DNA from: an uncultured Lachnospiraceae bacterium
GTDB taxonomy: Bacteria; Bacillota; Clostridia; Lachnospirales; Lachnospiraceae
Length of the DNA: 64,000 nucleotides
Direction of reading: 5' to 3'
Assembly (NCBI GenBank): GCA_947625775.1
Contig: CANQPM010000009.1
Coordinates: forward strand, 1 to 64,000
Both the position numbers and the translations under genes were made by a program. The first letter of the stretch is position 1. Each line of letters begins with the position of its first letter. Positions 7,348 through 31,280 of this stretch are shown one piece after another. The notes under the pieces were generated by a model. That model did not search any database and had not been told where the DNA came from. It saw only the letters and a list, made by a program, of their open reading frames with translations.

Positions 7348-7575
7348 GCCTGAGCAGGGACATACACCCTATTCAGACCAAACGGAACTTAGATTTTCTT
7401 AGGTGCTGTTTTTTAGCACCTTAGAAAATCTTTCCGTTTTGCTCTCGCTCCGTGGGAAGCGTAGCGGACACTAAGCTCAACGGCGCGTTAAAAGGAGCTG
7501 CGCTTTTAACGCGCCGTTGAGCTAAGTGCCGACGCTCCCCAAGGGTCTTCATAGGGTGTATGTCCCTGCTCAGGC
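7348..7575. repeat. Palindromic multi-hairpin repeat, copy A
   Basis: A 228-bp element whose ends pair: a 32-base left arm (7348-7379) matches the complement of the right arm (7544-7575) except for three central bases. Inside lie two hairpins. The first (7381-7438) pairs AGATTTTCTTAGGTGCT with AGCACCTTAGAAAATCT. The second (7454-7494 with 7503-7540) has a stem of about 40 pairs. Related copies lie at 7650, 8028, 30925 and 31161. Arm sequences differ between copies but stay complementary within each. No open reading frame or transposase is present. It could be a MITE-like or REP-like element, or a structured RNA. Confidence 0.9.
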
Positions 7576-7649
7576 TGCTGTATTGGTGGCATTTACGTAA
7601 GATGGTGCGTGTGCCGTAGTAGGTAGGCAGTGAGCAACAGTGTATTTTG

Positions 7650-7725
7650 GACCTTCATAGGGTGTATGTCCCTGCTCAGGCTACTGTATTGGTGGCGTTT
7701 ACGTAAGATGGTGTGTGTGCCGTAG
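7650..7725. repeat. Tandem duplicate of the right end of repeat A
   Basis: The right arm of copy A and its flank (7544-7619) recur here 106 bases further on with few changes, including the tail CTGTATTGGTGGC and TTTACGTAAGATGGTG. It lacks the left arm and internal hairpins. Confidence 0.85.
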
Positions 7726-8027
7726 GGGAAGTTAATGCGTGATGGTGTATTTTAAATGTTAGTCGGTATTTATTGAATGGTAATGTAGAATAAATTAAAG
7801 TTGTACACAAATAGTGATTAGTAATCGTGCATATAAAGGCGCAGAAAACAGGAATATGTTTCAGAGAGTAAATAAATATTTGGTGTATAGATGAACACAG
7901 CGAATTAATGACATATTCAAGAAAACAAGCTACAGTAAATTCGACTACAGCCATACCAGCAAAATAGCTAACGGCATATTTAAGATAATAAACTAGAGTA
8001 ATTCAACTACAGCATACCAACAACTTA
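7726..8027. other. Spacer between repeat copies
   Basis: AT-rich spacer without a supported gene. It contains a weak direct repeat: ATTCGACTACAGCCATACCAGC near 7938-7960 and TTCAACTACAGCATACCAAC near 8000-8020. The second is the flank of repeat B, so the first may be the remnant of another repeat end. A reverse reading frame at 7676-7954 shows no ribosome binding site or protein-like features. Confidence 0.5.
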
Positions 8028-8194
8028 GCCCGAGCAGAGTAATATACCCCATGAAGACCCTTGGGGAGCGTCGGCACTTAGCGAAGCAAGCTGTAAAAGC
8101 GTAGCTCCTTTTACAGCGCGGCTGAGTTTAGTGTCCGCTACGCTTCCCACGGAGCGCAAGCGGGTCTGAATGGGGTATATTACTTTGTTCGGGC
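8028..8194. repeat. Palindromic repeat, copy B (inverted, short form)
   Basis: Arms 8028-8060 and 8162-8194 are complementary, with AGTAATATACCCCAT on one side and ATGGGGTATATTACT on the other. The long inner hairpin is present (AGCTGTAAAAG / CTTTTACAGC at its tip), but the first hairpin of copy A is missing. It lies in opposite orientation to copy A, making a large inverted pair about 450 bases apart. Confidence 0.88.
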
Positions 8195-8404
8195 GGACTT
8201 ATGCGATACCCATATTCATTTTTTACAATTTTTTTCTAAAAGTTTGTCCTCATAAATTCATTCCCGCAATCATAAAATAGATATAGCTTATCACCCCATT
8301 TGTACACTCATTGGAAACACACCCCAATTTTAACATTATTTTTGTAAATATTTCAAGAAACCCAAAAATCATCCAGAAAAAATATATTAAAATTACACAA
8401 ACCA

Positions 8405-8434
8405 CTATCATTTTTTGGAAATTTATAGTATAAT
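8405..8434 (+). promoter_or_regulatory. Likely promoter of glgC-glgD
   Basis: TATAAT at 8429-8434 within TTTATAGTATAATTT. The -35 region (around 8405-8411) is poor. The block TTTATAGTATAAT is shared with glgP. The glgC ribosome binding site GAGGAGG follows at 8455-8461. Confidence 0.55.
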
Positions 8435-8467
8435 TTCAATAAAATAAAAAATATGAGGAGGTAGACT

Positions 8468-9676
8468 ATGGCAAAAGAAATGATTGCAATGCTGCTGGCC
8501 GGAGGACAAGGCTCGCGCCTTTACACCCTGACGCAAAAGCTGGCAAAACCCGCTGTCCCCTTTGGCGGAAAGTATCGAATAATCGACTTCCCGCTGTCAA
8601 ACTGTGTCAATTCGGGAATTGATACAGTAGGTATACTTACACAGTACCAGCCCCTGGTGCTCAACGAGTATATCGGAAACGGACAGCCGTGGGATCTGGA
8701 CAGACTCTACGGAGGCGTACATGTGCTCCCGCCTTATCAGCAGGCAAGCGGTTCAGACTGGTATAAGGGTACGGCAAACGCCATTTACCAGAACATCAAC
8801 TTTATCGAGAGGTATGATCCAAAATATGTCATCATTCTCTCAGGCGACCAGATATGCAAGCAGGACTACAGCGATTTCCTCGAGTTCCATAAGTCAAAAG
8901 GAGCCGAGTTCAGCGTAGCCGTTATGGAGGTGCCTTGGGAGGAGGCAGGACGTTTCGGTCTCATGGTTACTGACGAAAACGACAAGATCACGGAGTTCCA
9001 GGAAAAACCGAAGGAGCCCAAGTCAAATCTTGCTTCAATGGGTATTTATATATTCAACTGGAATATCCTCAAACAGTACCTTATCGAAGACGAAAATGAT
9101 CCCAACTCCGAGAACGACTTCGGTAAGAATATTATTCCCAATCTGCTTCAGGATAACAGGGAAATGTACGCATACCGTTTCAACGGCTACTGGAAGGACG
9201 TCGGCACCATTTCCTCACTCTGGGAGGCAAACATGGAAGTGCTCGATCCCGAAAACAGCGGCATCAACCTCTTTGACGAGGACTGGCGCATATACAGCAG
9301 AAACAGCGGTATGACCGGCCACAGGATAGGCGCTAACGCAGTGCTTGAAAATTCAATGATTACAGACGGCTGCAGCATCGAGGGTGAGATTAAGCACTCT
9401 ATCCTTTTTGCAGGTGTAAAGGTTGAGGAAGGCGCGGTTATTGAGGACGCAGTCGTAATGGGCGGCAGCGTTATCAAGGCGGGCGCGCAGGTTAAGCACT
9501 GTATAGTGGCTGAAAACGTAGTAATTGAGAAGGACGCCGTAGTAGGCGCTATGCCCGAGGGCGACGAGAAGGGCGTGGCTACTATAGGCTCGGGCGTAAC
9601 CATAGGCGAAGGCGCGGTAATCGGACCAAAGGCTATGGTATCAAGTGATGTAGAGGGAGGCGGCAAGATATGGTAA
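8468..9676 (+). CDS. glgC: Glucose-1-phosphate adenylyltransferase, catalytic subunit
   Basis: A 402-residue enzyme that makes ADP-glucose from glucose 1-phosphate and ATP, the first committed step of glycogen synthesis. The nucleotide-binding start [16 protein letters not shown] is intact, as are [12 protein letters not shown] and YWKDVGTI. The C-terminal part (about 290-400) is a left-handed beta-helix with repeated V-V-x-G and I-x-x-G steps. It overlaps glgD by seven bases, so the two subunits are very likely translated together. GAGGAGG lies six bases before the ATG. Confidence 0.95.
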
Positions 9677-10818
9677 ATTCAAATGCAGATTCAGCAATGG
9701 GTATATTGTTCCCAAACAGCTATGATTCACTGGTGCCTGAGCTTGTTGCCGAGCGTCTGATGGCATCAATACCGTTTGCGAGCCGTTACAGAATGGTTGA
9801 CTTCCTGCTTTCAAGCATGGTAAACAGCGGCATTGACAACGTATCTCTTATTGTAAAGAAAAATTATCATTCCCTTATGGATCACCTTGGCTCAGGCAGG
9901 GAGTGGGATTTGACGCGTAAAAAAGGTGGCTTGAACATCATTCCTCCGTTTGCGCAGAAGACTGTCAATGTGTACAACGGCAGGGTTGAGGCGATAGCAA
10001 GCATTATCGACTATCTCAAACGCCAGAGCGAGAAATACGTCATCATGGCGGACACGAATATTGCCGTAAACTTTGACTTTGGCGCGCTTTTACAGCAGCA
10101 TATCGACAGCGGGGCTGATGTGACGATTGCCTACACCAAGGAAGAAATTCCCGCGGATTTGGTAAATATCGACATCACCAAAAAGGATTTGTACTATACG
10201 CTTGACATAGACGACAGCGGCAGAGTGACAAATATCGTGGTAAACAATAAGGACAGTGGCGAAAAGAATGTTTCAATGAACATTTACGTTATTTCGCGCA
10301 AGCTCCTTATAGATCAGGTTGAGGAGGCTTATGTGAGCGGCAGGACATATTTTGAGCGCGACATAATAGCTCCCAAGCTTGACGTGCTTAATGTCAGGGG
10401 ATATCAGCACACAGGCTACTATGCGCGCATTGTCAGCATAAACAGCTACTTCAATGAGAATATGAAGATGCTTGACGCGGACAACGTTGAGGGACTGTTT
10501 GCACCGAGCCCTATTTATACAAAGATTCGCGACGACAACCCGACGCGCTATATGGGCGGCGTACATGTTAAAAACGTGATGGCGGCTGACGGCTGCGTTA
10601 TCGAGGGCGAGGTTGAGAACAGCATTCTCTTTAGGGGCGTAAAGGTAGGCAAAGGCGCAAAGGTAAAGAACTGCGTGCTCATGCAGGACACGGTTATTGA
10701 GACAGGCGCTCATGTAGAATATGCAATTACAGACAAAAACGTGAATATTTCGGCTTACAAGGAGCTTAAAGGCACAGAGTCATTCCCTGTATTTGTCGAA
10801 AAGCGTAAAAACGTATAG
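9670..10818 (+). CDS. glgD: Glucose-1-phosphate adenylyltransferase regulatory-type subunit GlgD
   Basis: A 382-residue paralogue of GlgC. It keeps the fold ([18 protein letters not shown], then a C-terminal beta-helix) but the N-terminus reads [16 protein letters not shown] instead of the glycine-rich nucleotide loop GGxGxRL, so it probably has little catalysis alone and acts as partner of GlgC, as known for Firmicutes GlgCD complexes. The start overlaps the end of glgC, and the ribosome binding site AGGGAGG lies inside glgC. A terminator follows. Confidence 0.93.
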
Positions 10819-10841
10819 TTTTTTAAATTAAAAATAATGCT

Positions 10842-10875
10842 GCCGCGCTGAATGACTTGGCGCGGCGGTTTTTTT
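10842..10875 (+). terminator. Terminator of glgCD
   Basis: GCCGCGC pairs with GCGCGGC and is followed by a run of T. Confidence 0.85.
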
Positions 10876-10940
10876 GTTTATGACAATAGAAAATTCTCAA
10901 GGGCATGGCATTTGACAAGCTTGTTAAAATATTAACCACG

Positions 10941-10972
10941 CATAACAAAGACAAAGCATAACAAAGACAAAG
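10941..10972. repeat. Two 16-bp tandem repeats
   Basis: CATAACAAAGACAAAG occurs twice in a row, followed by a third partial CATAA. It lies in the spacer before the SpoIID-like gene. No function can be assigned. Confidence 0.8.
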
Positions 10973-11098
10973 CATAAATTGGCGAATAAAGCATAAAATA
11001 GCAAAGAGCGTAACCGTAATGCATTTTTGCGCTTGTAAAGCCTTTATCGGACAATGCTGGGAGGCTGCGGCGTATAAATGCGGCAAGGCGGAGGATAA

Positions 11099-11752
11099 TT
11101 GAAAAAGCTCCTAAAAATTCTTATATTTATAATTGTTGTGCCAATCATAGCAAGCATTATAATAAAGCCCGAGCTTACTGATAAGTCGGATGAGGAAAAT
11201 GACACAGATGTCATATCTCTCCCCTTTTCAGTAATAATAGAAGATGACAAGGGCGCTTACGAATATACTCCCGAGGCTATAATCCCATATATGGTAAACG
11301 CGCTGACCTCGTGGGAGCTGCTTTCGGAATTTGAGGACACCGTAAATCCCGCGGCAAAGCGGCAGGAATACCTCAAAGCGCTTTCAATAGTGTGCCGCAG
11401 CAATCTCATCTACATATGGGAGCAGCAGGGGCGCCCTGAACGGATTGATATATGCGAAAGCGGGCTGCATATAAAAAACTATGACGACGCGCAAAAATTT
11501 GACGAGGCTGAAAGTGCGGCAGAAGCGACGCTTGGAGCTGTAATTACGAATGCGGACTCTGAAAAGGGGGCGGTAATTGCAGCTCCTTTTTATACTACGA
11601 AGGATTGGGACATAACGCTTGGAATTGCTGGCAAAGGCGACGGGCTGTCGCTAAATTACGCAGCTCTACTTGCTAAGGAAGGAAAGGATTTTTACAGCAT
11701 ATTAAACTATTTTTACAAAAATATGCAAATAACCATCTTTGACGTAAATTGA
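11099..11752 (+). CDS. SpoIID-like sporulation protein, divergent
   Basis: A 217-residue protein with one N-terminal membrane segment (about 4-22) and the rest outside. The stretch from about 58 to 115 (EYTPEAIIPYMVNAL ... YLKALSIVCRSNLIY) fits the SpoIID/LytB pattern in which an acidic residue follows a loop and a helix of the form ALKAQAVAARTY. Position supports it: in Clostridia spoIID is usually followed by a SpoIIQ-type gene, as here. The start is TTG with GGAGG five bases upstream. Similarity is weak, so this could be a degenerate or merely related envelope protein. The expected role is peptidoglycan breakdown during engulfment. Confidence 0.5.
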   Translation: MKKLLKILIFIIVVPIIASIIIKPELTDKSDEENDTDVISLPFSVIIEDDKGAYEYTPEAIIPYMVNALTSWELLSEFEDTVNPAAKRQEYLKALSIVCRSNLIYIWEQQGRPERIDICESGLHIKNYDDAQKFDEAESAAEATLGAVITNADSEKGAVIAAPFYTTKDWDITLGIAGKGDGLSLNYAALLAKEGKDFYSILNYFYKNMQITIFDVN

Positions 11753-11841
11753 CCATGAACTGAATAAATCAGTAAATTTCGGAAATGCTACTAATGTGGT
11801 AAAGCCATAAATAAATTGTAGCAGACAGATGGAGGTTGAAG

Positions 11842-12795
11842 ATGGATAAACACAACAAGAAACGCCCTGCCGTACAGAAAGAGAAGGCAGGCATAATAGC
11901 CGCATCAGTATTTGTGCTGTCAGCGCTTACGCTTGCGGGCGTATATATGGCGGAGCGCAACAAGACAAATTCACAGGAGAACCGCATAGATTTTGCAAAG
12001 CTTGAACAGCAGAGCGAACAGGCTCAGGACAACGCCGCGGCAAAATCCGCGCAGGACAGCGATGCAGCGTCGGGGAACGCGGGCGCAGGCAGACAGACCG
12101 CAGACACATCGCTTGCAAAGACAGGAATAGATACGCGGTTTACAAGGGAAATTGATGATTTAAGCGATAACAACGATATGGACGTAGATCCCGCATATAC
12201 GGAGGTAAATTCAGCCAATGTAACAAACACGCCTATAGAAGGGACTGATAAGGCGGCTGTCTTTATGGGAGAAAGCAATTCGTCGGAGAGCGCGGTTTCT
12301 GAAAATGAGGTAACCTCGGAAAACGAAATTGTCGCCGACAACGAGGCGGCTGCGCCTGCGGAGCTTTCCTTCACAGACGGAGAGACGCTGCAGCTTCCCG
12401 CAGTAGGAAACGTGCTTTTGGAATACAGCATGGACAAGGCTGTTTACCACGGCACAATGCAGCAGTACCGCTATAATCCCGCGCTTGTCATAGAAGCGTC
12501 TGAGGGCGAGATAATCACGGCGGCGGCAGACGGCATAGTGTCAAATGTATATTACGACGCGCAGACAGGCAATACCATAAGCTTTAATCTGGGCGACGGC
12601 TATGAGCTTACCTACGGACAGCTTGAGGACATTAACCTGCAGGTGGGCGACACAGTAGCGGCGGGAGATATGGTTGGCAAGGTGGCAAAGCCTACGATAT
12701 ATTACACTGACGAGGGCACGAATATTTACCTTAAGCTCACAAAAGACGGCGCGCCTGTAAACCCTCTGGACATGGCAGGCGGCTCAGGGCAGTAA
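11842..12795 (+). CDS. M23/LytM-domain protein, SpoIIQ-like
   Basis: A 317-residue membrane protein with an N-terminal anchor (about 14-34), a long acidic low-complexity linker (about 45-180) and a C-terminal LytM-type domain (about 190-315). The metal ligands of active M23 enzymes are missing: no HxxxD before the TAAADGIVSNVYYD strand, TYGQL where YxHL is usual, and GTNIYLKL where an HxH is expected. It is therefore probably non-catalytic, like Bacillus SpoIIQ, which pairs with SpoIIIAH across the engulfing membranes. GGAGG lies six bases before the ATG at 11842. It follows the SpoIID-like gene directly. Confidence 0.68.
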   Translation: MDKHNKKRPAVQKEKAGIIAASVFVLSALTLAGVYMAERNKTNSQENRIDFAKLEQQSEQAQDNAAAKSAQDSDAASGNAGAGRQTADTSLAKTGIDTRFTREIDDLSDNNDMDVDPAYTEVNSANVTNTPIEGTDKAAVFMGESNSSESAVSENEVTSENEIVADNEAAAPAELSFTDGETLQLPAVGNVLLEYSMDKAVYHGTMQQYRYNPALVIEASEGEIITAAADGIVSNVYYDAQTGNTISFNLGDGYELTYGQLEDINLQVGDTVAAGDMVGKVAKPTIYYTDEGTNIYLKLTKDGAPVNPLDMAGGSGQ

Positions 12796-12824
12796 ATATA
12801 TCTGAAAAGGAAAAGTAAAAGCAG

Positions 12825-13997
12825 ATGCTTCTATTGAAAAATGCAACAGTCCGCACAATGGGCAAGGCGGGTACTTTTGAGGGCAGCGTGCTGATAAAGG
12901 AAGGCAAAATAGCCGAAGCCGCGCCAAATATAGAGCTTCCCGCCTCCGCGGATTGCGAAGTAATAGATTTAAATCACAATTTAGTAATGCCAGGACTTAT
13001 AGAGGCGCATTGCCATATGGGCATAACCGAGGAAAAGAAGGGGCAGGAGGGCGACGACTGTAATGAGACAGTCCACCCGATAACGCCGATTTTAAGGTCA
13101 ATAGACGCGATAAACGCGATGGACGCGGCTTTTCATGATGCCGTAAAGACGGGAATAACCGCCGCAAACATTGGTCCAGGCAGCTCAAATGTCGTAGGCG
13201 GACAGTTTGCCGTGGTAAAGACAGGCGGCGCAAGGCGGATTGACGACATGATTTTGAAATTTCCCTCCGCGATGAAGGTTGCCTTCGGCGAAAATCCAAA
13301 GGTCAATTACGCGGGGCTCAACACCTCGCCAGTCACAAGAATGGCGATTGCGGGGCTGCTTCGCGACGAGCTGACAAAAGCGCGCCAGTATTTAGACGAT
13401 TATGAGAAAAACAACACGGAATACAGCCTTCATTATGAGGCATGGCGGCCAGTCTTTGAAAGGAAAATCCCGATAAAAGCCCATGTACACCGTGTAGACG
13501 ATATTTTTACGGCGATACGCATAGCGAATGAGTTTGGGCTGAAAATGACGCTTGACCACTGCAGCGAGGGGCATCTGATAGCGGACGAGCTTGCCGCGGA
13601 GGGGTATCCTGCCATTGTCGGGCCTGATTTTGCAAGCAGGAACAAAATCGAAGTCCAGAATGTCGCATTCAAGACCGCGGGCGTATTGGCGAAGGCGGGC
13701 CTTACGGTGGCAGTCACGACAGACCACCCCGTATCTTTGATACAGTCCCTGCCGCTCTGCGTGGGAATGTGCGTAAAGCAGGGGCTGCCAATGGAGGAGG
13801 GGTATCGTGCGATGACGATAAACGCGGCAAAAATATGCGGCGCAGATGACCGCATAGGCAGCATAGAGCAGGGCAAAGACGCCGATTTGGCGGTATATGA
13901 CGGCAATCCGATGGAGATTTTCACAAATACCCTTATGACGATTATAGATGGAAAAATCGTTTATAAAAACGATAAAGCGGCGCACACTCTTTACTAA
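12825..13997 (+). CDS. Amidohydrolase family protein (imidazolonepropionase-like)
   Basis: A 390-residue metal-dependent hydrolase. The HxH of strand 1 is in EAHCHMG (about residue 62), further ligands are likely in KAHVHR (about 225) and LDHCSEGH (about 249), and the last aspartate region is TTDHPVS (about 306). The C-terminus returns to the small beta domain with GSIEQGKDADLAVYDGNP. The substrate is unknown; this subgroup includes cyclic amide and peptide hydrolases. It lies 30 bases after the SpoIIQ-like gene and could be in the same transcript. Confidence 0.85.
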   Translation: MLLLKNATVRTMGKAGTFEGSVLIKEGKIAEAAPNIELPASADCEVIDLNHNLVMPGLIEAHCHMGITEEKKGQEGDDCNETVHPITPILRSIDAINAMDAAFHDAVKTGITAANIGPGSSNVVGGQFAVVKTGGARRIDDMILKFPSAMKVAFGENPKVNYAGLNTSPVTRMAIAGLLRDELTKARQYLDDYEKNNTEYSLHYEAWRPVFERKIPIKAHVHRVDDIFTAIRIANEFGLKMTLDHCSEGHLIADELAAEGYPAIVGPDFASRNKIEVQNVAFKTAGVLAKAGLTVAVTTDHPVSLIQSLPLCVGMCVKQGLPMEEGYRAMTINAAKICGADDRIGSIEQGKDADLAVYDGNPMEIFTNTLMTIIDGKIVYKNDKAAHTLY

Positions 13998-14046
13998 TAA
14001 GCCAAATGCGTGTACAATAAAGAGCGGAAGGTAAAATAGGTGGTAT

Positions 14047-15474
14047 ATGTTCAGCTTAAAAATAAATTCTAAAATAAAGCCTGTAAGCCTGATTTTATGC
14101 GTTATCCTCTCTTTAAACGGCTGTATGCCTGCCGCGTCGAATGAGCAGGGGCAGGCAGGCGGCGGGGCGCAGCCGCCGTCGGCGGAGGGCTATGGGGAGA
14201 ACTATTCGGCGATGCTTTTGGAACAGGGCATAGCCCTTCCCGAAAGCCATGCGAGGATATACGTAAATCAGGCGGGCTACAGCCTGGAGCGCGGTAAAAA
14301 GGCGGTCTTTGCGCTTGAGGAGGGAGTTGACACCTTTAGGGTGGTAAGGGCTTCGGACAAAGAGACAGTCTATACAGGAGAAATCTCCGCCCTGCCGCAA
14401 AACAATACGGGCGGAGTTCTGCTTGGCATAGGCGATTTCTCACAGGTGAATCAGACGGGAGTATATTACATAGAATGTGACACCATAGGGCGTTCTTATC
14501 CGTTTACGATAGCTCAGGACTCATATGAGAAGCTGTTCCTCGGCTTGCTGCGCAACGCTGCTGACGTGAATTTGGCGGAGAATGCGCAGGGCGTGTGCGA
14601 CGTAAGCTTTGGCATGAATATCCTGATGTATTCCCTCCAATGCAACGGAACGCTTTATGAGGAGGCATACACGCATCTGGCTGACAGCGGATATGAAGGC
14701 GATATGGTGACGGTGCTTCTGCAGATGGCCCAGTGGCTCCTGTCAAAACAGGAGGAGAACGGGAGCCTTTATGATGATTATGAAGCTACTGCGGCGTTTT
14801 GCGGCGCAATCACGATGAGTCTGGACACATTTGGAATTTACCAGTCAAGCGTAGCGCAGGAGTACAGTGATGCCGCCAAAAGGGCGTGGGACTGGCTTAA
14901 CGGGCAGAAATGTGACACAGATGTCAGAAAAATGGCGCGGTTTTATGCCGCCGCGCAGCTTTTTAAATCAGAGGGAAAAGAGCAGTACAAAAATATAGCG
15001 CTTGAATTTCTTGACAGCGGGCTTGAAAGCTACAGCGACAGCCGCTTTGTGTTTTACGGAGTGATTACATATATGGGCTCACAGAATATAGACCGCGACC
15101 TCTGCACGCAGATAATGATAAAGCTTGTTGACGATACGGAGCAGATAAGCAATGCCGCAAAAAATGACGCGCTCTTAGGCACGGGAAAGCGCTCGGTCAG
15201 CGAAAACCTTGACAATATTCTGCTGCTCGGTTTCACAAATTATATAACGCCAAATAAGGAATACACGGCAATAATTGAGAATACCATACAATATATGGGC
15301 GGGCTCAATGAAAAGGGCGAATGCTATATTTCCAATGAGGGCGTCTGGCAGGCATCTGATGAAACGGCGGACAGGGGCTTTGAGTGGAACGCGATACTTT
15401 TGTTTGGCTGCAGCGATATGCTGAAAAACTTAAATGATATGAAAGGCAGCGCCGACGGCGCGGAAATGAGGTAA
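14047..15474 (+). CDS. GH9-like lipoprotein with CelD-type N-terminal domain
   Basis: A 475-residue exported lipoprotein: signal segment and lipobox LSLNGC (cysteine near residue 26). Residues about 68-165 look like the Ig-like domain that precedes many family 9 glycoside hydrolases (ARIYVNQAGYSLERGKKAVF ... GVYYIECDTIGRSYPF). The rest is helical, in the size range of an (alpha/alpha)6 barrel, but the family 9 catalytic block GGWYDAGD is absent. It may bind rather than cleave. It is three bases before ddl and likely cotranscribed with it and murF, so a role in cell-wall or envelope work is possible. AGGTGG precedes the ATG. Confidence 0.6.
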   Translation: MFSLKINSKIKPVSLILCVILSLNGCMPAASNEQGQAGGGAQPPSAEGYGENYSAMLLEQGIALPESHARIYVNQAGYSLERGKKAVFALEEGVDTFRVVRASDKETVYTGEISALPQNNTGGVLLGIGDFSQVNQTGVYYIECDTIGRSYPFTIAQDSYEKLFLGLLRNAADVNLAENAQGVCDVSFGMNILMYSLQCNGTLYEEAYTHLADSGYEGDMVTVLLQMAQWLLSKQEENGSLYDDYEATAAFCGAITMSLDTFGIYQSSVAQEYSDAAKRAWDWLNGQKCDTDVRKMARFYAAAQLFKSEGKEQYKNIALEFLDSGLESYSDSRFVFYGVITYMGSQNIDRDLCTQIMIKLVDDTEQISNAAKNDALLGTGKRSVSENLDNILLLGFTNYITPNKEYTAIIENTIQYMGGLNEKGECYISNEGVWQASDETADRGFEWNAILLFGCSDMLKNLNDMKGSADGAEMR

Positions 15475-15476
15475 AA

Positions 15477-16523: not shown

Positions 16524-16548
16524 TCTAAAAAAGGAGTTTAGGCGTGTC

Positions 16549-17949: not shown

Positions 17950-17972
17950 GGTAAAAATTTATCTTAAGGCAT

Positions 17973-18066: not shown

Positions 18067-18090
18067 GACGGTTTGGGACAGACATAATTG

Positions 18091-18862: not shown

Positions 18863-18869
18863 ATAGTTA

Positions 18870-21156: not shown

Positions 21157-21217
21157 AAAAAAGCAGGGAAATTTTCGCTGTAATAACTAACAATTTTTTT
21201 TGAAAGGGAGGAAAGAA

Positions 21218-23224: not shown

Positions 23225-24193
23225 ATGAGTAAGAAAAAAGAAGTCGTAACCTCGGGCGGTATCGTGGTTCGTGAGAAACCGTTGAAGCTCCGCATTTGGA
23301 ACAACAGAGGATATTACATAATGTTTATCCCTGTTCTTGTATTTTTGATTATCATTCATTACTGGCCTCTGTTGGGTATTCGTTATTCGTTCTATGATTA
23401 TTACCCCGGACGTCAGGCACCTACCTTTGTAGGAATTAAGCATTTCCAGAACATGTTCGCGACAGCGGCATTCTGGACAGCATTTAAAAATACTCTTGAG
23501 TTGAGTGTTATTAAGCTGATTATCACGACTGTTTCATCAGTAGTCGTATCAATCTTCTTAAATGAAATGGGAAATCTTCTCGCAAAGAAAACTTTGCAGA
23601 CTATAATATATCTGCCTCACTTTATGTCTTGGGCGGTTGTGGCATCAATCTTCAGCTTGTTTCTCTCTCCGTCAAGCACAGGCTTGGTAAACGGTATGCT
23701 GAAGTCTTGGGGCGTTATCGATCCAGCAGGGCAGGGCATTTACTTCCTTGCAAGCAAGGATTGGTGGCGGCCGATATTCTATATCATCAATATCTGGAAG
23801 GAAACAGGTTGGGGAACAATTATTTTCTTAGCTACGTTGTCAGGCATTAACCCCGAGCTTTATGAAGCGGCTGACATCGACGGAGCTACCCGTCTCCAGA
23901 AGATACGCTTTGTAACGGTTCCTGCATTGATGAACACAATTATCACTGTATTAATCCTCAATCTTGCTAAAGTTATGAATATGTTCGAGTCAGTATTCGT
24001 ACTTTACAACAGCAACGTATATGATGTATCAGATGTTGTTTCAACATACATCTATCGTCAAAGCTTTGCAGTTGCAAGACCGAACTACGGTTATTCAACA
24101 GCAGTTGGCTTGTTCAAGAGCTTAGTCGGATGCGTTCTCGTGCTTGTATGTAACTGGGCAAGTAAGAAGACGCGCGGCCGCGGTATTATCTAG
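23225..24193 (+). CDS. Sugar ABC transporter permease, LplB type
   Basis: A 322-residue membrane protein with about six membrane segments and the conserved inner-face loop ELYEAADIDGATRLQKIRF (EAA motif) near residue 220. It forms the channel together with the next gene. The family is usual for polysaccharide uptake in Firmicutes. AAGGAAGAG precedes the ATG. Confidence 0.92.
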   Translation: MSKKKEVVTSGGIVVREKPLKLRIWNNRGYYIMFIPVLVFLIIIHYWPLLGIRYSFYDYYPGRQAPTFVGIKHFQNMFATAAFWTAFKNTLELSVIKLIITTVSSVVVSIFLNEMGNLLAKKTLQTIIYLPHFMSWAVVASIFSLFLSPSSTGLVNGMLKSWGVIDPAGQGIYFLASKDWWRPIFYIINIWKETGWGTIIFLATLSGINPELYEAADIDGATRLQKIRFVTVPALMNTIITVLILNLAKVMNMFESVFVLYNSNVYDVSDVVSTYIYRQSFAVARPNYGYSTAVGLFKSLVGCVLVLVCNWASKKTRGRGII

Positions 24194-24204
24194 GAGGTGT
24201 TAAT

Positions 24205-25065
24205 ATGGCAAAAGAGGTTTCAAGCAAACCAAAACAGAAACTTCATGTTTTTGATATTATTAATTATATAGTATTTATTATACTTGGACTTTGCATATTG
24301 GTACCTATCTGGAAGGTACTTATCGACTCATTAAACCGTGTTGGTGTATATCAGTTCCAGCTCTGGCCCAGCCAGTTTACTTTAGACGGATATAGGACTA
24401 TTATCGAGACAACAGCATTGTACAGACCGTTCATTAACTCATTTATTACAACAATTTTAGGTACGCTGCTTGGTCTGGTGCTTTCAACACTCGGCGGTTA
24501 TGTGCTTGTGCAGTTTGAGATGCCTGGCCGTAACTTCCTCGCATACCTGCTGCTCTTTACAATGATTTTCTCAGGCGGTATGATTCCTGAGTACTTGGTT
24601 ATGAAGCAGTTAGGTCTTGTAAACAGCATGTGGATACTGGTTGTTAAGCACGGTATGAATGTTTACAACCTCGTACTTATGAGAAACTTCTTTGAAGGTA
24701 TTCCCGATTCACTGTATGAGGCGGCAAAGCTTGACGGCTGCAGCCCGATGGGTATATTCTTCAAGATTGTGCTCCCGCTTTCAAAGGCGGCTCTCGCGTC
24801 AATCGGTTTGATGTTTGCCGTAACAGTATGGAACGATTACTCAACAGTTCAGATTTACATAACAGATCCGAACCAGGTAAACTTCCAGTATAAGCTGAGA
24901 ACAATGGTTATGGACGGCGATACGCCGACGACATCATACAATGTTTCACAGACTACGCTGTTTAACGCAGGTATCATAGCAGCGATACTTCCGTTCATGG
25001 TATTGTATCCTTTCTTACAGAAATACTTTGTAACAGGTGTTAATATCGGTGCGGTTAAAGAGTAA
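24205..25065 (+). CDS. Sugar ABC transporter permease, YtcP/AraQ type
   Basis: A 286-residue membrane protein with six predicted segments and the EAA loop SLYEAAKLDGCSPMGIFF near residue 175. It starts 11 bases after the first permease with AGGAGGTG upstream. No ATPase gene lies nearby, so the system probably uses a shared MsmX-like ATPase encoded elsewhere. Confidence 0.92.
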   Translation: MAKEVSSKPKQKLHVFDIINYIVFIILGLCILVPIWKVLIDSLNRVGVYQFQLWPSQFTLDGYRTIIETTALYRPFINSFITTILGTLLGLVLSTLGGYVLVQFEMPGRNFLAYLLLFTMIFSGGMIPEYLVMKQLGLVNSMWILVVKHGMNVYNLVLMRNFFEGIPDSLYEAAKLDGCSPMGIFFKIVLPLSKAALASIGLMFAVTVWNDYSTVQIYITDPNQVNFQYKLRTMVMDGDTPTTSYNVSQTTLFNAGIIAAILPFMVLYPFLQKYFVTGVNIGAVKE

Positions 25066-25106
25066 TTTAATGTAGTGTTGAGACTTGTTAAGGGAACAAA
25101 GTAAAT

Positions 25107-25154
25107 AAAAAACGTGTCTGAAACGGCAGAATGGGCTGTTTCGGACACGTTTTT
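25107..25154 (+). terminator. Terminator after the transporter operon
   Basis: AAAAACGTGTCTGAAAC pairs with GTTTCGGACACGTTTTT; strong stem with a T-run. Confidence 0.9.
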
Positions 25155-25253
25155 GTTGTTTAGGATAGAGAGGGTTTTGTAAAGTGTAATTTTTATTTGC
25201 GTTTATTGTTGATAATATTTAATATTAAAAATATTGTTTAAATTTAGGTATGC

Positions 25254-26156
25254 CTAATTTTTATTTGGTTTTGTATTTGTCACAATATCAGAATGAATAT
25301 TACCATCGGAGTAACCATGCGCCCTAGCCCATTCGAGTACCTTATAAAGTTCTTCATCTTTTTGAGCAAGAGCAATCTCCTTCTCGGCAAGCTTAGCCTC
25401 CGCAGCCGCAAGTCTTTCGGCATAATCTTCAAATTCCTCGCGTTCCCAGCAGCGCTTTTTGACCTCAAAATCAGCGCAAAGCTCAAATATTGTTTTAGAA
25501 GCTTCTTTCATGTAATCATTATCCTTTGCCAGCATTTTGACCGCCTCCCATGTGTTAGCCTTGAAAAGCTTAGCCCACCTGTCAATGCCGTATTCCTTAT
25601 CCTCGTCAGTGGCAAGCTCTGTTTTATTTAAGTCTACCACACAAAGGGTAAGGTTGTCACTGTATATTTGATGTGTTTTTATATTTGCAAGCTTGTATGT
25701 AGCAAAAAACTCGGGCATTGCCCCTTCCAGTGAAAAATCGAGAAAGCCAATATGTATGACAGGTCTTGCGTCATTATATTTGCTGCCACGGTTCAGATTG
25801 TCATATGAGCGGCAGATATACGATATGGAGCGATTGCGCCAGTTAAGCATGTTGGCAACCTGCATTTCAAGGTTTATAATTGTGTGGTTATTAAGTATGA
25901 CATTGATATCAAGCCACATCTGCTTGGCATCTATCGACTCGCCAAGTATAATTGGATTAGTAATGCGCACCTCTTTGATGTCGCTTTCCGACAGATGCAG
26001 TAGCGCTTTGATAAGTCCGCGCAAAACGCGATTGTTCTTCTGCAGTACGGCGCGGAACATATAGTCGTTTGTCATATTAAAAGGTATCTTGCCCGTCGCT
26101 GATTCATAATCAGTACAGGCATTGTCGTTAAAAATTGTATTTTTTGTTTCTGTCAA
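25254..26156 (-). CDS. Rpn-family PD-(D/E)XK nuclease / transposase-like protein
   Basis: A 300-residue protein of the Rpn/YhgA group (recombination-promoting nucleases, long labelled transposases). MTNDYMFRAVLQKN is the usual start, and LDINVILNNHTIINLEMQ holds the acid and ExQ residues of the nuclease core (about 82-100). A charged coiled coil, AAAEAKLAEKEIALAQK, lies near 250. It starts with TTG, with AAAGG ten bases before. Members occur in many copies per genome and move by unknown means. No flanking repeats are visible. Confidence 0.85.
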   Translation of the reverse strand: MTETKNTIFNDNACTDYESATGKIPFNMTNDYMFRAVLQKNNRVLRGLIKALLHLSESDIKEVRITNPIILGESIDAKQMWLDINVILNNHTIINLEMQVANMLNWRNRSISYICRSYDNLNRGSKYNDARPVIHIGFLDFSLEGAMPEFFATYKLANIKTHQIYSDNLTLCVVDLNKTELATDEDKEYGIDRWAKLFKANTWEAVKMLAKDNDYMKEASKTIFELCADFEVKKRCWEREEFEDYAERLAAAEAKLAEKEIALAQKDEELYKVLEWARAHGYSDGNIHSDIVTNTKPNKN

Positions 26157-26585
26157 TTTAATTGTGTCCTTTCATGGTTATTTTTTGCTTGTTGTGGTAA
26201 GTAAAAAGCGGGATTTTGTCAGAAATTTATCTTTTCATAAAATAAAATGCAGCGCAGCAAAAAGCACCATAACAAAATTGGTGGCATTTGTCAAATCGAA
26301 ATGTAAAAATTCGCGCGAAATGTAAAAAATAATACAAAATTCTTGAAATAACAGTAAATAAAATGCTAATGCGGATTTGTCGGCGGTGTATGTTAAAGGC
26401 TATATTTTCACAGATAAAACGAACACAATCCCTTGTAAAAAAAATGGAAACATCATATAATAAAATAAGATTGCAATATAAATCGGTGCATCAAAGTATA
26501 TAGGCAGGAGGATTATTTTAATAAATCCAAGCAGGCGGCGGAGATTTACGCTTCGCCAATAAAAAGCGCAAAGAGAGGGGATTAA
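26157..26585. promoter_or_regulatory. Intergenic region with promoter of the acetylesterase gene
   Basis: A 429-base spacer. TTGTAA (26433-26438), 17 bases and TATAAT (26456-26461) make a forward promoter. A ribosome-binding-like AGGAGG at 26507-26512 is not followed by a clear reading frame; a longer leader remains before the esterase start. Confidence 0.6.
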
Positions 26586-26591
26586 TTGATT

Positions 26592-27305
26592 ATGGCGGAC
26601 AATGAAATCAAAATATACTGGGCGGCAGATTCCACGGTGCAGACAAACGACATAACTACATATCCGCAGACAGGAATCGGACAGGTTTTTTCAATGTACA
26701 CTAAGGTCGGCGTGCGTGTGATAAACCACGCCAAGAATGGCAGGAGCACCAAGAGCTTTATTGATGAGGGGCGGTTAAAGGCTATAGATGAGGCGATTGG
26801 CGAAGGTGATTATCTGTTTATCCAATTCGGGCATAATGACGAAAAGAAGGAGGATCCGACACGCTACACAGAGCCGTTTTCGACATATATTGAAAACCTT
26901 GAAACATACATCGGAGTGGCAAGAAATCACGGCGCATATCCTGTCCTGATTACGCCGCTGGAGCGCAGATGCTTTGTAGATGACAAGCATCTTGGCGCGG
27001 GCGCGCATTCTGAATATGTTGCGGCAATGAAACAGGCTGCTGAAAAAAATAACGTGCCGCTTGTCGATTTATATAGCATGAGCCGTGTCGAGCTTGAAAA
27101 GGCAGGAGAGCCTGCAAGCCGCAAGTGGTATATGTATTTTGACGAAAACCTTTATAAAAATTATCCAGAGGGCAAGCAGGACAATACGCATTTGCGATAT
27201 GAGGGCGCGGTAATGTATGCGGGGCTTATAGCCAAAGGGCTTGGAGCGCTTGGCGGCAGATACAGGGAGCTTCTGATCGATGAGTTGGAAAGCGCAGTTG
27301 AATAG
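26592..27305 (+). CDS. Rhamnogalacturonan acetylesterase-like SGNH hydrolase (CE12)
   Basis: A 237-residue SGNH/GDSL esterase: WAADSTV (catalytic serine block), FIQFGHNDEKK (Asn block) and DNTHLRYEGA (Asp and His). This arrangement is typical of CE12, which takes acetyl groups off pectin side chains. No signal peptide is seen, so it probably works on imported oligosaccharides. The frame also allows a TTG at 26586; GAGGGG lies upstream of both. It may belong with the cre-controlled transporter to its left. Confidence 0.82.
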   Translation: MADNEIKIYWAADSTVQTNDITTYPQTGIGQVFSMYTKVGVRVINHAKNGRSTKSFIDEGRLKAIDEAIGEGDYLFIQFGHNDEKKEDPTRYTEPFSTYIENLETYIGVARNHGAYPVLITPLERRCFVDDKHLGAGAHSEYVAAMKQAAEKNNVPLVDLYSMSRVELEKAGEPASRKWYMYFDENLYKNYPEGKQDNTHLRYEGAVMYAGLIAKGLGALGGRYRELLIDELESAVE

Positions 27306-27328
27306 GCGGAATTTATATTGAATGATGG

Positions 27329-27362
27329 AGTGTATTTCGTATATGAAGTACACTTCTTTTTA
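27329..27362 (+). terminator. Terminator after the acetylesterase gene
   Basis: AGTGTATTTC pairs with GAAGTACACT (one G-U), followed by TTCTTTTTAT. Confidence 0.7.
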
Positions 27363-27383
27363 TGTAAATTAGTCATGTTTAAA

Positions 27384-27412
27384 TAGACATACTTATATTA
27401 GTAAGTTATAAT
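27384..27412 (+). promoter_or_regulatory. Likely promoter of pyrK-pyrD
   Basis: TAGACA (27384-27389), 17 bases, TATAAT (27407-27412). A leader of roughly 100 bases precedes pyrK; I see no clear PyrR-binding fold. Confidence 0.6.
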
Positions 27413-27520
27413 AAAAGTGAATATGGAGAAAATTTGGCGTTGTATAAGGCACTGTGCATAGTTACAAAATAGTTTTTCATAGATGATTTAATGGAATATG
27501 TTGTGAGGGGAGGCATTATT

Positions 27521-28300
27521 TTGAATAAAAGAAAAGAGACAGCGGTGGTTTACAGGCAGCAGCCGATAGCAGATGATGTGTATGATATGTGGATAGAAAC
27601 ATCGCTTGCGAGGGAAGCGAAGGCAGGGCAGTTTATAAGCGTGTTTACGCGCGACAGGTCTACGCTTTTGCCGCGCCCGATAAGCATTTGCGAGACGGAC
27701 AGGGAGAATGAGCGGCTGCGCATAGTCTACCGCGTGGCAGGCAAGGGAACGACAGAGTTTTCAGATTACCGTGCGGGCAATAAAATAGACATACTCGGTA
27801 CGCTCGGCAACGGCTTTCCGACGGAAAAAGCGGCAGGAAAGCGCGTGTTTTTGATGGGCGGCGGCATAGGAATACCGCCAATGCTCCAGCTTGCAAAGGA
27901 TATAACGGAAAATTCCGAGGTATGCATAATCTTGGGCTACAGAAACAGCCAGCTGTTTTTATCGGAGGATCTTTCCCAATACGGCACGGCATATATCTCC
28001 ACGGAAGACGGCAGCGTGGGCGTGAGGGGAAATGTGCTTGACGTAATCGAAAAAAACGGACTTTCGGCGGATATAATTTATGCGTGCGGACCGCTGCCTA
28101 TGCTGCGGGCGATTAAGAAATACGCCAAGACGGCAGGGATTCCCGCATACATATCGCTCGAAGAAAAAATGGCGTGCGGGGTAGGCGCGTGTCTTGGGTG
28201 CGTCGCAAAGACAAGCATGGTAGACCATCATTCGCATGTAAAAAATTCCAGAATATGCACGGACGGACCTGTTTATCTGGCAGAAGATGTCGAAATATAG
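27521..28300 (+). CDS. pyrK: Dihydroorotate dehydrogenase, electron transfer subunit
   Basis: A 259-residue FAD and [2Fe-2S] protein that passes electrons from PyrD to NAD. The FAD block LPRPISIC, the nucleotide block VFLMGGGIGIPPML and the cluster cysteines CGVGACLGC plus a later cysteine (near the end) are intact. The frame reaches an ATG at 27491 without a ribosome binding site, whereas the TTG at 27521 has GGGGAGG eight bases upstream and gives the usual N-terminus. pyrD follows after 12 bases. Confidence 0.93.
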   Translation: MNKRKETAVVYRQQPIADDVYDMWIETSLAREAKAGQFISVFTRDRSTLLPRPISICETDRENERLRIVYRVAGKGTTEFSDYRAGNKIDILGTLGNGFPTEKAAGKRVFLMGGGIGIPPMLQLAKDITENSEVCIILGYRNSQLFLSEDLSQYGTAYISTEDGSVGVRGNVLDVIEKNGLSADIIYACGPLPMLRAIKKYAKTAGIPAYISLEEKMACGVGACLGCVAKTSMVDHHSHVKNSRICTDGPVYLAEDVEI

Positions 28301-28312
28301 GAGGAACCGCAG

Positions 28313-29224
28313 ATGAAGCTTAATACAAAAATAAAAATAGCGGGCGTTGAGTTCAAAAATCCTGTAATGACGGCATCAGGCACATTTGGCTCGGGCATGG
28401 AATATTCGGAATTTACGGATTTAAACCGCCTCGGCGCGGTAGTGACAAAAGGTGTGGCAAATGTGCCGTGGGAGGGAAACCCTACCCCACGCGTGTGCGA
28501 GACATACGGCGGCATGCTCAATGCCATAGGGCTTCAAAATCCTGGGCTTGACGTGTTTATAGAGCGGGATATCCCGTTTCTTAAAAAATTTGATACCAAA
28601 ATAATAGTGAACGTGTGCGGGCGCTCCATAGCTGACTATGTGGAGGTTGTGGAGGGGCTTTCGGACCAGCCTGTTGATATGCTGGAAATCAATGTTTCCT
28701 GCCCGAATGTGAGCCATGGAGGCATAGCTTTTGGACAAAATCCCGACTGCCTGTTTGAGATAACAAAGGAAATAAAGGCAAAGGCAAAGCAGCCGATTAT
28801 CATGAAGCTTTCACCGAATGTGACCGACATAGCTGAGATGGCAAAGGCGGCGGAGGCGGCGGGAGCGGACGCCATTTCGCTGATAAACACTATTACGGGA
28901 ATGAAGATTGATATACACAGACGCAAATTTGCGCTGGCAAACAGGACAGGAGGGCTGTCAGGACCTGCGATAAAGCCCGTAGCGGTAAGAATGGTATATC
29001 AGGCGGCAAATGCCATAAAGCTGCCGATTATCGGCATGGGCGGCATAGCCACAGCCGATGACGCGATAGAGTTTATGCTCGCGGGCGCGACGGCTGTTGC
29101 CGTGGGAATGATGAATTTTGTCAATCCCTACGCGACGGGGGAGATAGTAAGCGGTATTGAGGACTATATGCGCCGCTATGATATCAGGAATATTTCTGAA
29201 ATAATCGGTGCAGTGACCGATTAA
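28313..29224 (+). CDS. pyrD: Dihydroorotate dehydrogenase, catalytic subunit (type 1B)
   Basis: A 303-residue FMN enzyme that oxidises dihydroorotate to orotate. NPVMTASGTFGSG opens the barrel, EINVSCPNVSHGG carries the catalytic cysteine of class 1B enzymes, and IIGMGGIATADDAIEF binds the FMN phosphate. It is paired with pyrK, as usual for the NAD-linked form. AGGAGG precedes the ATG. Confidence 0.95.
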   Translation: MKLNTKIKIAGVEFKNPVMTASGTFGSGMEYSEFTDLNRLGAVVTKGVANVPWEGNPTPRVCETYGGMLNAIGLQNPGLDVFIERDIPFLKKFDTKIIVNVCGRSIADYVEVVEGLSDQPVDMLEINVSCPNVSHGGIAFGQNPDCLFEITKEIKAKAKQPIIMKLSPNVTDIAEMAKAAEAAGADAISLINTITGMKIDIHRRKFALANRTGGLSGPAIKPVAVRMVYQAANAIKLPIIGMGGIATADDAIEFMLAGATAVAVGMMNFVNPYATGEIVSGIEDYMRRYDIRNISEIIGAVTD

Positions 29225-29306
29225 ACAAGGAATAAACAAACCCTTTTGGGAATACAATTAAGTACATCAGCTTGTAACTGTTTTGTATTTTCAGGAGGGT
29301 TTTTAT

Positions 29307-30884
29307 ATGGAGCTTTTAAAAAAGAATATTCATACCGAGAAAATAAAGTCAAAGGCAATGCTGCAGCTGCCGATGGAGGAGGACATAAACGTATCAGACG
29401 CAAAGCCTGATGTGGCGAGGATAATTTACAGCAGCGGAGACGTAAAAATCGAAGAAATCAAGATGGGAATGAACAAAATCTGGGTAAAGGGGCAGCTGTG
29501 CTATCAGATTTTGTATCAGGCGGAAGGCGCGGAAATCGGAAGTGCCGCGGGAATGGAAGGAGGACTTCCCTTTATGGAGGAAATCTACCTTGAGAGGCTT
29601 GAAGGGCAGGACAGGGTAGTGTGCTGCCCGCAGCTTGAGGATATGCGCGTACATATTATTAATTCAAGAAAGCTCAGTATTCAGGCGGTGGTAAGTCTGG
29701 AGCCGTGCGTGGAGGAAACTGTCACGGAGGAGCTATGTACGGAGCTTGAGGGCGCTGACGGCGCGGGGGCAGGCAGTGATAAGCTGGAATACAGAAAAAA
29801 ATTTGTTGATTATCTCGAAACAGAGGTTAAGAAAAGGGATTTGCTCCGTATTCATGAGGAGGCGAAGCTTGCGGCGGGAATGCCCGATATAGGCGAAATG
29901 GTCTGGAAAAGCCTTGACATTGGCAGCATAAGCTTTCACGCAGGAGATGAAAAGCTTGTTGTCACAGGCGAGCTTAATGTATTTATAGTGTACAATGAGG
30001 ACAATAGCGGAAAAGCAAACTGGTACGAAACAACAATACCATTCAGCGGAAATATAGAGTGCTCCAACAGCCGCGAGGGTATGCTTGCGGATATCAGCTA
30101 TGAAATAGGGCATGAGGAGATCACGGTGAGAGATGACGCAGACGGTGAGCCGAGAATTATCGGAGTAGAGGCGGCGCTGGAGCTTGAAATAAAAATTTTT
30201 TCAAGGGAGAGCTCGCCGATTGTAGCTGATGTCTACGGCGTAAGCTGTGAGGTAAATGCGCAGACTGCCGCGAAGGACTTCAGAAATATGCTTGCGGAGC
30301 TTAATATAGAGGAAAAGCTTGTCAGGAATATAAAGCTTGAGGAAACAGAGCCAAAGCTTTTGCAGATATGCCACAGCGACGCGAAGGTTGAGATTGAGGA
30401 CACAGTCTTTAAGGAAGACGGACTTACTATCAGCGGAAATATTACGCTGCAGGCGCTTTACACGTCAAGCGATGACGCGCAGGGTTTTTATCCGATAAAG
30501 GAGACGATACCGTTTGAGGTTGTAAGGCAGGTGGAGGGAATTGAAAATGCGGAGGTGGAGCAGTATTCGCTCTATGCGCAGACGGGAAGTCCGTCAATCA
30601 CGATTAAGGACAGCGCGCAGGTAGAGGCGAGGATAACTTTAAATCTTCATATGATTGTTTATGATACTAGGCAGGAGGATATTCTCACGGATTTGAAGAT
30701 TGCCCCGATAGATGCGGCGGTGCTTGAAAAGCTGCCAGGGTTTGCCATTTATTATGTAAAGCAGGGGGATTCGCTTTGGCAGATTGGGAAGAAGTATTAT
30801 GTGAGTGTTGAGCAGATTAAGGAGATAAATAATTTGAGTAGTGATGAGATAAAAGTTGGAGATAAATTGTTGATTGTGAAATAG
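29307..30884 (+). CDS. sipL: DUF3794 and LysM spore coat protein, SipL-like
   Basis: A 525-residue protein. The N-terminal and middle parts contain DUF3794-type (SPOCS) domains (MELLKKNIHTEK start, EEDINVSDAKPDVARI, later KIEDTVFKEDG-like repeats with ITLQALY). The last 48 residues are a LysM domain (YVKQGDSLWQIGKKYYVSVE ... IKVGDKLLIVK). The same layout is known for C. difficile SipL, which binds SpoIVA and places the coat. AGGAGGG lies nine bases before the ATG at 29307. It suggests a spore former. Repeat elements follow it. Confidence 0.82.
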   Translation: MELLKKNIHTEKIKSKAMLQLPMEEDINVSDAKPDVARIIYSSGDVKIEEIKMGMNKIWVKGQLCYQILYQAEGAEIGSAAGMEGGLPFMEEIYLERLEGQDRVVCCPQLEDMRVHIINSRKLSIQAVVSLEPCVEETVTEELCTELEGADGAGAGSDKLEYRKKFVDYLETEVKKRDLLRIHEEAKLAAGMPDIGEMVWKSLDIGSISFHAGDEKLVVTGELNVFIVYNEDNSGKANWYETTIPFSGNIECSNSREGMLADISYEIGHEEITVRDDADGEPRIIGVEAALELEIKIFSRESSPIVADVYGVSCEVNAQTAAKDFRNMLAELNIEEKLVRNIKLEETEPKLLQICHSDAKVEIEDTVFKEDGLTISGNITLQALYTSSDDAQGFYPIKETIPFEVVRQVEGIENAEVEQYSLYAQTGSPSITIKDSAQVEARITLNLHMIVYDTRQEDILTDLKIAPIDAAVLEKLPGFAIYYVKQGDSLWQIGKKYYVSVEQIKEINNLSSDEIKVGDKLLIVK

Positions 30885-30924
30885 GTATGTGATTGTGAAA
30901 TAGGTATGTGATTGGTAATAGGTC

Positions 30925-31151
30925 GCCCGAGCAGGGGCATATATCCCATTCAGACAAACGGAACTTAGATTTTCTTAGGCGTTGTACTTTTAACGCCTTA
31001 GAAAATCTTTCCGTTTTGATTGCGCTTAGTGGAAGGCGTAGCGGACACTAAGCTCAATGGCGCTGTAAAAGGAGCTGCGCTTTTACAGCTTATTTCGCTA
31101 AGTGCCGACGCCTTCCAAAGGTCTTCATGGGATATATGCCCCTGCTCGGGC
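30925..31151. repeat. Palindromic multi-hairpin repeat, copy C
   Basis: Full-length relative of copy A, 227 bp. Outer arms (30925-30955 with 31121-31151) read GGGGCATATATCCCAT and ATGGGATATATGCCCC, different from copy A but still fully complementary. Hairpin 1 keeps AGATTTTCTTAGG/CCTTAGAAAATCT with a changed tip (CGTT/AACG instead of TGCT/AGCA). Hairpin 2 ends in CTGTAAAAG/CTTTTACAG instead of GCGTTAAAAG/CTTTTAACGC. Confidence 0.9.
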
Positions 31152-31160
31152 TAGTGTATT

Positions 31161-31280
31161 GGAATGCGTAGCGGTATTAAGCTCAGTAGCGCTGTAAAAG
31201 GAGCTACGCTTTTACAGTTTGCTTCGCTAAGTGCCGACGCTTCCCAAAGGTCTTCATGGGATATATGCCCCTGCTCGGGC
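31161..31280. repeat. Partial tandem copy D of the palindromic repeat
   Basis: Copies hairpin 2 and the right arm of C, with the flank CTAGCGTATTGGAA. The left arm and hairpin 1 are missing, as with the partial copy beside A. Hairpin 2 has its own changes (TCAGTAGC; TTTGCTTCGC). Confidence 0.85.

Follow-up and report, generated by a model that had tools for sequence, protein, structure and literature searches.

A clade-limited palindromic element of Lachnospiraceae and the probable recopying of its arms in DNA

A 64,000-nucleotide stretch of DNA from an uncultured Lachnospiraceae bacterium (GenBank assembly GCA_947625775.1, contig CANQPM010000009.1, positions 1 to 64,000 of the forward strand; "the window" below) contains three full copies, A, B and C, of a palindromic element of ~170-230 bp, and these are copies of a dispersed repeat which has multiplied in one clade of a Lachnospiraceae genus. 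The evidence set out here makes it probable that this is a non-autonomous element with a core whose type is spread across the family and with outer arms that are kept complementary by recopying from arm to arm in DNA, the arms having been born by foldback copying of the flanking DNA.

Copies, anatomy and spread of the element

The genome to which the window belongs (G000; 3.75 Mb in 42 contigs) was searched together with its relatives (G017, G020 and G027; single loci are given as L and a number). With copy A as query, blastn returned 61 aligned pieces in G000, and a core profile search returned 41 entries (among which the entry L005 is, by its position, a reverse-strand self-hit on copy A and another is the partial copy beside C). 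A covariance search of the genome and its relatives, proposed as a check in an earlier note on this DNA, was carried out with a model built on 30 own-genome copies and yielded many further copies: at least 69 in G000, at least 69 in G017, at least 68 in G020 and 32 in G027, up to 72 candidates being scored per genome. G002 and G004 have a single match apiece, and the remaining 32 of the 38 genus genomes gave no match. Among the copies fetched from G017, G020 and G027, orthologs were found for 28 G000 copies. An assembly artefact was ruled out for this family, as the same loci recur in separate genomes.

The copies in the window and their parts are as follows.

7348..7575, plus strand: copy A, with outer stem, inserted hairpin 1 and core hairpin 2 (made a perfect palindrome in its upper part by correction)
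7348..7379, plus strand: left arm of copy A, outer-stem inverted repeat
7379..7442, plus strand: hairpin 1 within copy A, a separate repeat that is not in the G017 ortholog
7443..7543, plus strand: core of copy A with hairpin 2
7544..7575, plus strand: right arm of copy A, outer-stem inverted repeat
7653..7725, plus strand: tandem duplication of the right arm and right flank of copy A (96% to 7547-7619)
8028..8194, minus strand: copy B, without hairpin 1 (arms 8028-8060 and 8162-8194)
30925..31151, plus strand: copy C (arms 30925-30955 and 31121-31151)
30955..31018, plus strand: hairpin 1 within copy C, not in the G017 ortholog
31161..31280, plus strand: partial copy beside C, in which core, right arm and flank of C are duplicated in tandem (31178-31306 matches 31049-31177 at 88%)

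Relative to A and C, copy B thus lies on the minus strand, and all three fold far better than their shuffled sequences (z = -16.5 for A, -12.2 for B and -13.4 for C). The ends of the element are weakly conserved (left ~TTGGCAANAGGTC, right ~TAGNTTNTTGG in a consensus of 102 copies), and inside them lie arms of ~25 bp that are complementary within a copy and differ between copies. Inward of the arms comes a 2x2 mismatch (most commonly TC/TC), followed by a short stem, by a small GCTTGCGC hairpin and by the core hairpin 2, which holds an A-A mismatch and a second TC/TC loop; a GTAG motif stands near the hairpin foot in the core, partly paired, with CGTC on the opposite strand. The arms are the most variable part of the element and the core is the conserved part.

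Hairpin 1 is a separate repeat, because it is matched alone in 18 congeners and because orthologous copies occur with and without it (L113 and L036; copies A and C, which have it, and their G017 orthologs, which do not). At the six of its loci that were read (L052-L057), this conserved hairpin, AACTTAGATTTTCTTAGG...CCTTAGAAAATCTT, has a variable, perfect hairpin ahead of it. The earlier note had described five copies or partial copies on one plan, an outer stem around one or two hairpins, and no encoded protein. All five places are present, A, B and C are full copies and we agree that no protein is encoded, but hairpin 1 falls outside the common plan and the stretches at 7653-7725 and 31161-31280 are not independent palindromes, because they are tandem repeats of the right parts of A and C. 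Tandem duplication of the right arm and flank recurs beside elements, being seen in the window (7547-7725 and 31049-31306) and at L016 and L030.

The earlier note had also named as candidates elements like miniature inverted-repeat transposable elements (MITEs), structures like repetitive extragenic palindromic (REP) sequences and a non-coding RNA family, and had suggested looking for empty sites; the element is indeed multi-copy and dispersed, and one empty site was found. The G000 copy at C13:29520 is missing from G017 and G020, and where the flanks join in G017 no target duplication is visible (to within ~10 bp, the flanks being diverged). Arms and ends are present or absent at this locus as one unit with the core. 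Two further G000 loci gave no empty site: at L237 both copies are shared with both relatives, and of the two at L235 one is shared, the second being in a rearranged stretch.

Paired change and correction in the arms

At 37 of 63 predicted pairs at least one of the 30 own-genome copies has changed on both sides with the pair kept, and paired change is also seen at the same locus between species, bearing out the earlier observation that the arms change in step. Under selection on a folded RNA, G-U pairs are better tolerated than A-C. In the outer stems of 112 copies from four species, 2867 of 2907 pairs were Watson-Crick, 13 were G-U, 14 A-C and 13 other (117 entries less five with weak stems, namely L015, L050, L004, a partial copy in L002 and the L005 self-hit), and in hairpin 2 the 30-copy alignment holds 9 G-U and 9 A-C mispairs, with six of the nine G-U within one pair. 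For comparison, G-U pairs occur in 78.5% of two-step compensations in ribosomal RNA, according to one study (PMC8794818). Two of the copies left out of the count, L015 (G000 C4:219466) and L050 (G017 C6:26323), are full copies with unpaired outer arms, and lost pairing is therefore tolerated; in L166, the ortholog of L015, the arms are paired. The orientation of the 41 G000 entries to their neighbours, using uncurated frames called by length, was even as well, with 15 lying along both flanking genes and 14 against them (one of these being the L005 self-hit), four between convergent genes, four between divergent genes, three inside a called frame and one with a gene on one side. Covariation in the window's clade is thus accompanied neither by a preference for G-U intermediates (13 versus 14) nor by a strand preference. 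Rfam held no family for the element at gathering score, and a permissive search gave sub-threshold hits only.

Of 65 ortholog pairs 64 could be scored, and these showed 56 double changes keeping the pair, one not keeping it and 60 one-sided changes, alongside 1514 without change, 31 one-sided gaps and 15 two-sided gaps; the ortholog pairs share branches and so are not independent, and four of them, with 17-20 core differences, are possible whole-element replacements, without which 42 double changes remain. At least one double change was present in 23 of the 64. Divergence of the core between species (391 of 7424 sites, 5.3%) is near that of the BLAST-aligned flanks (~7.5%), and it follows that the copies evolve almost freely.

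Several copies show the corrections themselves. Hairpin 2 of copy A has turned into a perfect palindrome in its upper part, as far as the A-A mismatch, and in L011 the A-A mismatch has gone as well; the 2x2 mismatch has become paired through a change in the left arm in L020 and L051 and through a change in the right arm in L060 (G027), and L026 has a compensated one-base deletion with respect to its orthologs L127 and L139. As is expected of template switching, the changes in these six copies span several bases, make one arm the complement of the other and occur in both directions. They are footprints of one arm copied onto the other, and the alternative by which the earlier note would have been refuted, gene conversion between the arms, has therefore left its marks here. 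The note's own reading, that paired change points to selection on the base-paired form, is not supported for this clade, since G-U and A-C are about equally frequent, orientation is even, core and flanks diverge to a similar degree and the corrections involve several bases at once. Ancestral, active copies may have been selected for their folded form, the internal mismatches of the core being kept in most copies.

A core shared across the family and arms probably made from host DNA

The core (~85 nt) occurs across the Lachnospiraceae, where copies with quite different arms share it. The core pattern matched at least 97 loci and revealed relatives in assemblies named Lachnospiraceae, Clostridia, Eubacteriaceae and Butyrivibrio; the matches in Bdellovibrionales, Pokkaliibacter and Porphyromonadaceae look like chance. 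A strict form of the pattern matched in 22 of 397 family genomes (21 of 334 genera), with none for its reversed control among the matches listed; it undercounts, because the window's own type is missed (0 in G000). One strict pattern had no match in viral contigs, and one 105-base core query each had none in plasmids and phages. Inverted arms scoring at least 24, and 23-101 nt long, were present at 28 of 30 fetched loci (not L342 or L349; with wider limits arms reach up to 130 nt), and the pairs pooled from these strict-pattern loci were 1088 Watson-Crick, 37 A-C, 23 G-U, 103 other and 92 gaps. The long arms of this wider group are unlikely to be assembly artefacts, being imperfect and containing indels.

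In genome G348, which gave a set of 16 copies (L352, L365, L369-L371 and L373-L383), the left arm matched its own inverted right arm with scores of 43.5-90 in 15 copies (L383: 22), whereas 240 mismatched arm pairings averaged 17.9 and never exceeded 35.5. In ten of the 16 (L365, L381, L371, L370, L352, L374, L375, L380, L382 and L376) a long sense frame ends inside the left arm, with 7-32 nt of this arm being coding sequence, of which 6-25 nt recur unchanged in the inverted copy on the right; six of the ten have a coding part of 14 nt or more, and in the other four it is so short that by itself it carries little weight. Only short, untrusted frames end at L369 and L379, and L373, L377, L378 and L383 have no frame end. 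Pfam matched all ten genes tested, eight of the ten from G348 and two from other genomes, identifying IF-1, NYN-LOTUS (L347), glycogen phosphorylase (L102), M18 peptidase, iron hydrogenase, TldD/PmbA, a 4Fe-4S protein, CNNM/CorC, semialdehyde dehydrogenase and MetRS. Because coding ends are constrained, the left arm must be the original and the right arm the copy, and at L097, too, the right arm repeats, inverted, the apparent end of the left-hand gene. Among 131 copies, gene 3' ends reach the left arm in ~22 cases and the right arm in 5 (p 0.0015 for 22:5), in a tally that uses uncurated frames, includes window-type copies and L365 and counts some overlaps of a few nt only; cases in the opposite direction, with the gene end in the right arm, exist (L348 and L132). 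An empty-site look-up for the G348 IF-1 locus found no match in its three congeners. Inverted duplication of host DNA is the likely source of the arms. At L378 what appears to be the upstream gene's intrinsic terminator lies in the left arm, and a terminator-like inverted copy with altered stem pairs lies in the right arm.

Elsewhere in the window, the one Rfam match at gathering score was a flavin mononucleotide (FMN) riboswitch (40591-40705, plus strand, 110.9 bits), and three further pairs of direct repeats, 82-88% identical, lie at 55256-55555/58313-58612, 50991-51088/54473-54570 and 49885-49964/51243-51322.

Competing explanations and comparison with known systems

The recopying that we propose would take place in DNA, by template switching in the hairpin or by hairpin-primed synthesis, and the arms would stay complementary because a mutation, through the recopying of one arm from the other, is soon present on both sides. 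The core hairpin would be the place where DNA synthesis folds back; foldback within the element would keep the arms complementary, and at its edges it would copy host DNA into an inverted duplicate. As one arm in other lineages is host DNA and the other its inverted copy, the arms were most likely born by the same foldback copying, and in the window's clade one unit with its own arms and ends would have spread through the genome. We infer that template switching or self-primed synthesis is the agent, that inverted duplication is linked to insertion and that an enzyme recognises the core. A more tentative variant has the core hairpin as a mobile or mutagenic unit which itself creates inverted target duplications: the 5' side of the core would be joined to host DNA, its own 3' arm would then fold back, and synthesis along the host strand would copy ~10-100 nt of flank, the last codons of the upstream gene included, to the far side. 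Each such round of self-priming would also re-perfect the arms, which would explain why they are hypervariable and mutually complementary around a conserved core.

A number of observations weigh against arm recopying by a mobile element or leave it undecided. The A-A and TC/TC mismatches of the core persist in most copies, where free-running correction should erase them, and ancestral or active copies were therefore probably selected for them. The ratio of transitions to transversions fits a single shared value (32:20 in double changes, 24:16 in single changes, 244:140 in the core and 1407:1038 in the flanks), which is consistent with recopying and does not discriminate, because instantaneous compensations in ribosomal RNA are 61% transitions as well, according to the study cited above (PMC8794818). 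In G348 arm mispairs favour G-U (35 versus 11 A-C, with one duplicate locus removed and 10 of the 35 coming from a poor alignment of L374), unlike in the window's clade, and this excess could come from RNA selection, transcription-linked mutation or alignment noise. The own genome offers only one clean empty site, no mobilising enzyme or autonomous partner was found in searches made for Y1 transposases only, two roe-deer genomes (the JAFUFB and JAFUDS records) carry core-like copies with short or weak arms, and the picture is not uniform, since a few relatives have a conserved terminal repeat at their borders, GGTAATTGCGAAACT (L108; variants L252 and L286).

That the core inserts into the middle of pre-existing palindromes (terminators or other repeats), so that the arms are targets and not products, is unlikely. 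Arms do differ between loci around a common core, and REP-type repeats can sit inside longer palindromes, as one study describes for Anabaena, Thermomicrobium and Halothiobacillus (PMC3733652). However, the arms hold constrained coding ends (IF-1, MetRS, hydrogenase, phosphorylase) that would not by themselves be palindromic with the sequence downstream, and the empty site shows that in the window's clade core, arms and ends were gained or lost together. It is rather improbable that the element is a structured non-coding RNA or 3' untranslated region element, whose hairpin serves mRNA protection, processing or termination and whose pairing is restored by selection, although this would account for the strong covariation and for the conservation of mismatches and loops. 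Of the wider group's copies, 36 have a sense gene end on the left and 13 an antisense one on the right (both in 5, neither in 17; 60 of 131 copies, window-type or weak, were left out), and this, with the G-U excess of G348, favours an RNA. The excess in sense copies, strong in G348, was rejected as a sign of RNA since it is not significant when pooled, G-U to A-C being 55:38 (p 0.10) in left-sense, 21:24 in right-antisense, 5:10 in both and 18:16 in neither, none of them significant. The deficit of G-U at the strict-pattern loci, the evenness of mispairs and orientation in the window's clade, the near-equal divergence of core and flanks, and the lack of an Rfam match at gathering score all speak against this explanation.

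An ordinary MITE with the arms as terminal inverted repeats, mobilised by a DDE transposase that has escaped notice, is similarly doubtful: dispersal, intergenic position, clade limits, the empty site and the relatives with GGTAATTGCGAAACT would suit it, but variable arms around a conserved core are the opposite of what a transposase that reads terminal repeats would call for, the empty site has no visible target duplication and a search made for Y1 transposases only gave no autonomous partner. A REP-like element moved by a Y1 transposase, either a REP-associated tyrosine transposase (RAYT) or one of the IS200/IS605 type, is very improbable. The GTAG near the hairpin foot, the CGTC on the other strand, the TTGG at both ends and the lack of a visible target duplication recall such elements, the last two being like IS200/IS605, but the GTAG is partly paired, no Y1_Tnp (PF01797) turned up in G020 or G027, that of G000 was fragmentary and that of G017 interrupted by an internal stop, and the core was present in none of the 30 Y1 loci fetched of 48 matches listed. 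A RAYT or Y1 partner was ruled out, as Y1 does not track the element.

Among known systems, the element resembles MITEs in being non-coding, dispersed, foldback, intergenic and the product of a clade-limited burst, and it differs from them in that conserved terminal inverted repeats were not found (only the short ends being weakly conserved), the terminal repeats being variable and the core conserved, in that no target duplication was seen and in that no partner transposase is known. IS200/IS605 elements and their non-autonomous relatives have hairpin DNA, no target duplication (none being visible at the empty site here) and a similar short motif at both ends; here there is one giant hairpin in place of two subterminal ones, and no Y1 partner tracks it. 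Integron attC sites have the ends RYYYAAC and GTTRRRY, which by eye the right end here, GTTGGC, does not fit. We know of no system that explains a core at the tip of mirror-image copies of a neighbouring gene's end, and a literature search, covering sources other than subscription journals and preprints, gave nothing recognised as this core or as the inverted gene-end signature.

With the GTAG- and CGTC-tagged REP sequences and bacterial interspersed mosaic elements (BIMEs), as one study describes them (PMC3733652), the element shares a dispersed, extragenic, palindromic, multi-copy nature and a hairpin near GTAG. It is ~170-230 bp where theirs are 20-40 bp, has no RAYT association and has arms that are variable yet complementary, and its GTAG is partly paired inside a much longer hairpin and is not an unpaired tag beside one of 20-40 bp.

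Covarying stems are routinely read as evidence of functional RNA. The window's clade is a large natural set in which strong covariation occurs without the G-U signature, in place, between sister species and with corrections visible, and it may serve as a test bed for telling mutation mechanism from selection in RNA discovery; the wider group, with a single core at the tip of inverted gene-end copies, points to a signature of insertion or rearrangement. In quasipalindrome correction the arms of an imperfect inverted repeat are made perfect by copying. Template switching has been described as both the origin and the means of maintenance of perfect stems (PMC8794818), and the present element is like that process in that imperfect inverted-repeat arms have been perfected by copying, with changes of several bases. 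It differs in that the process is seen here in a dispersed repeat family whose core is conserved, and in that host DNA is apparently drawn into new arms as well.

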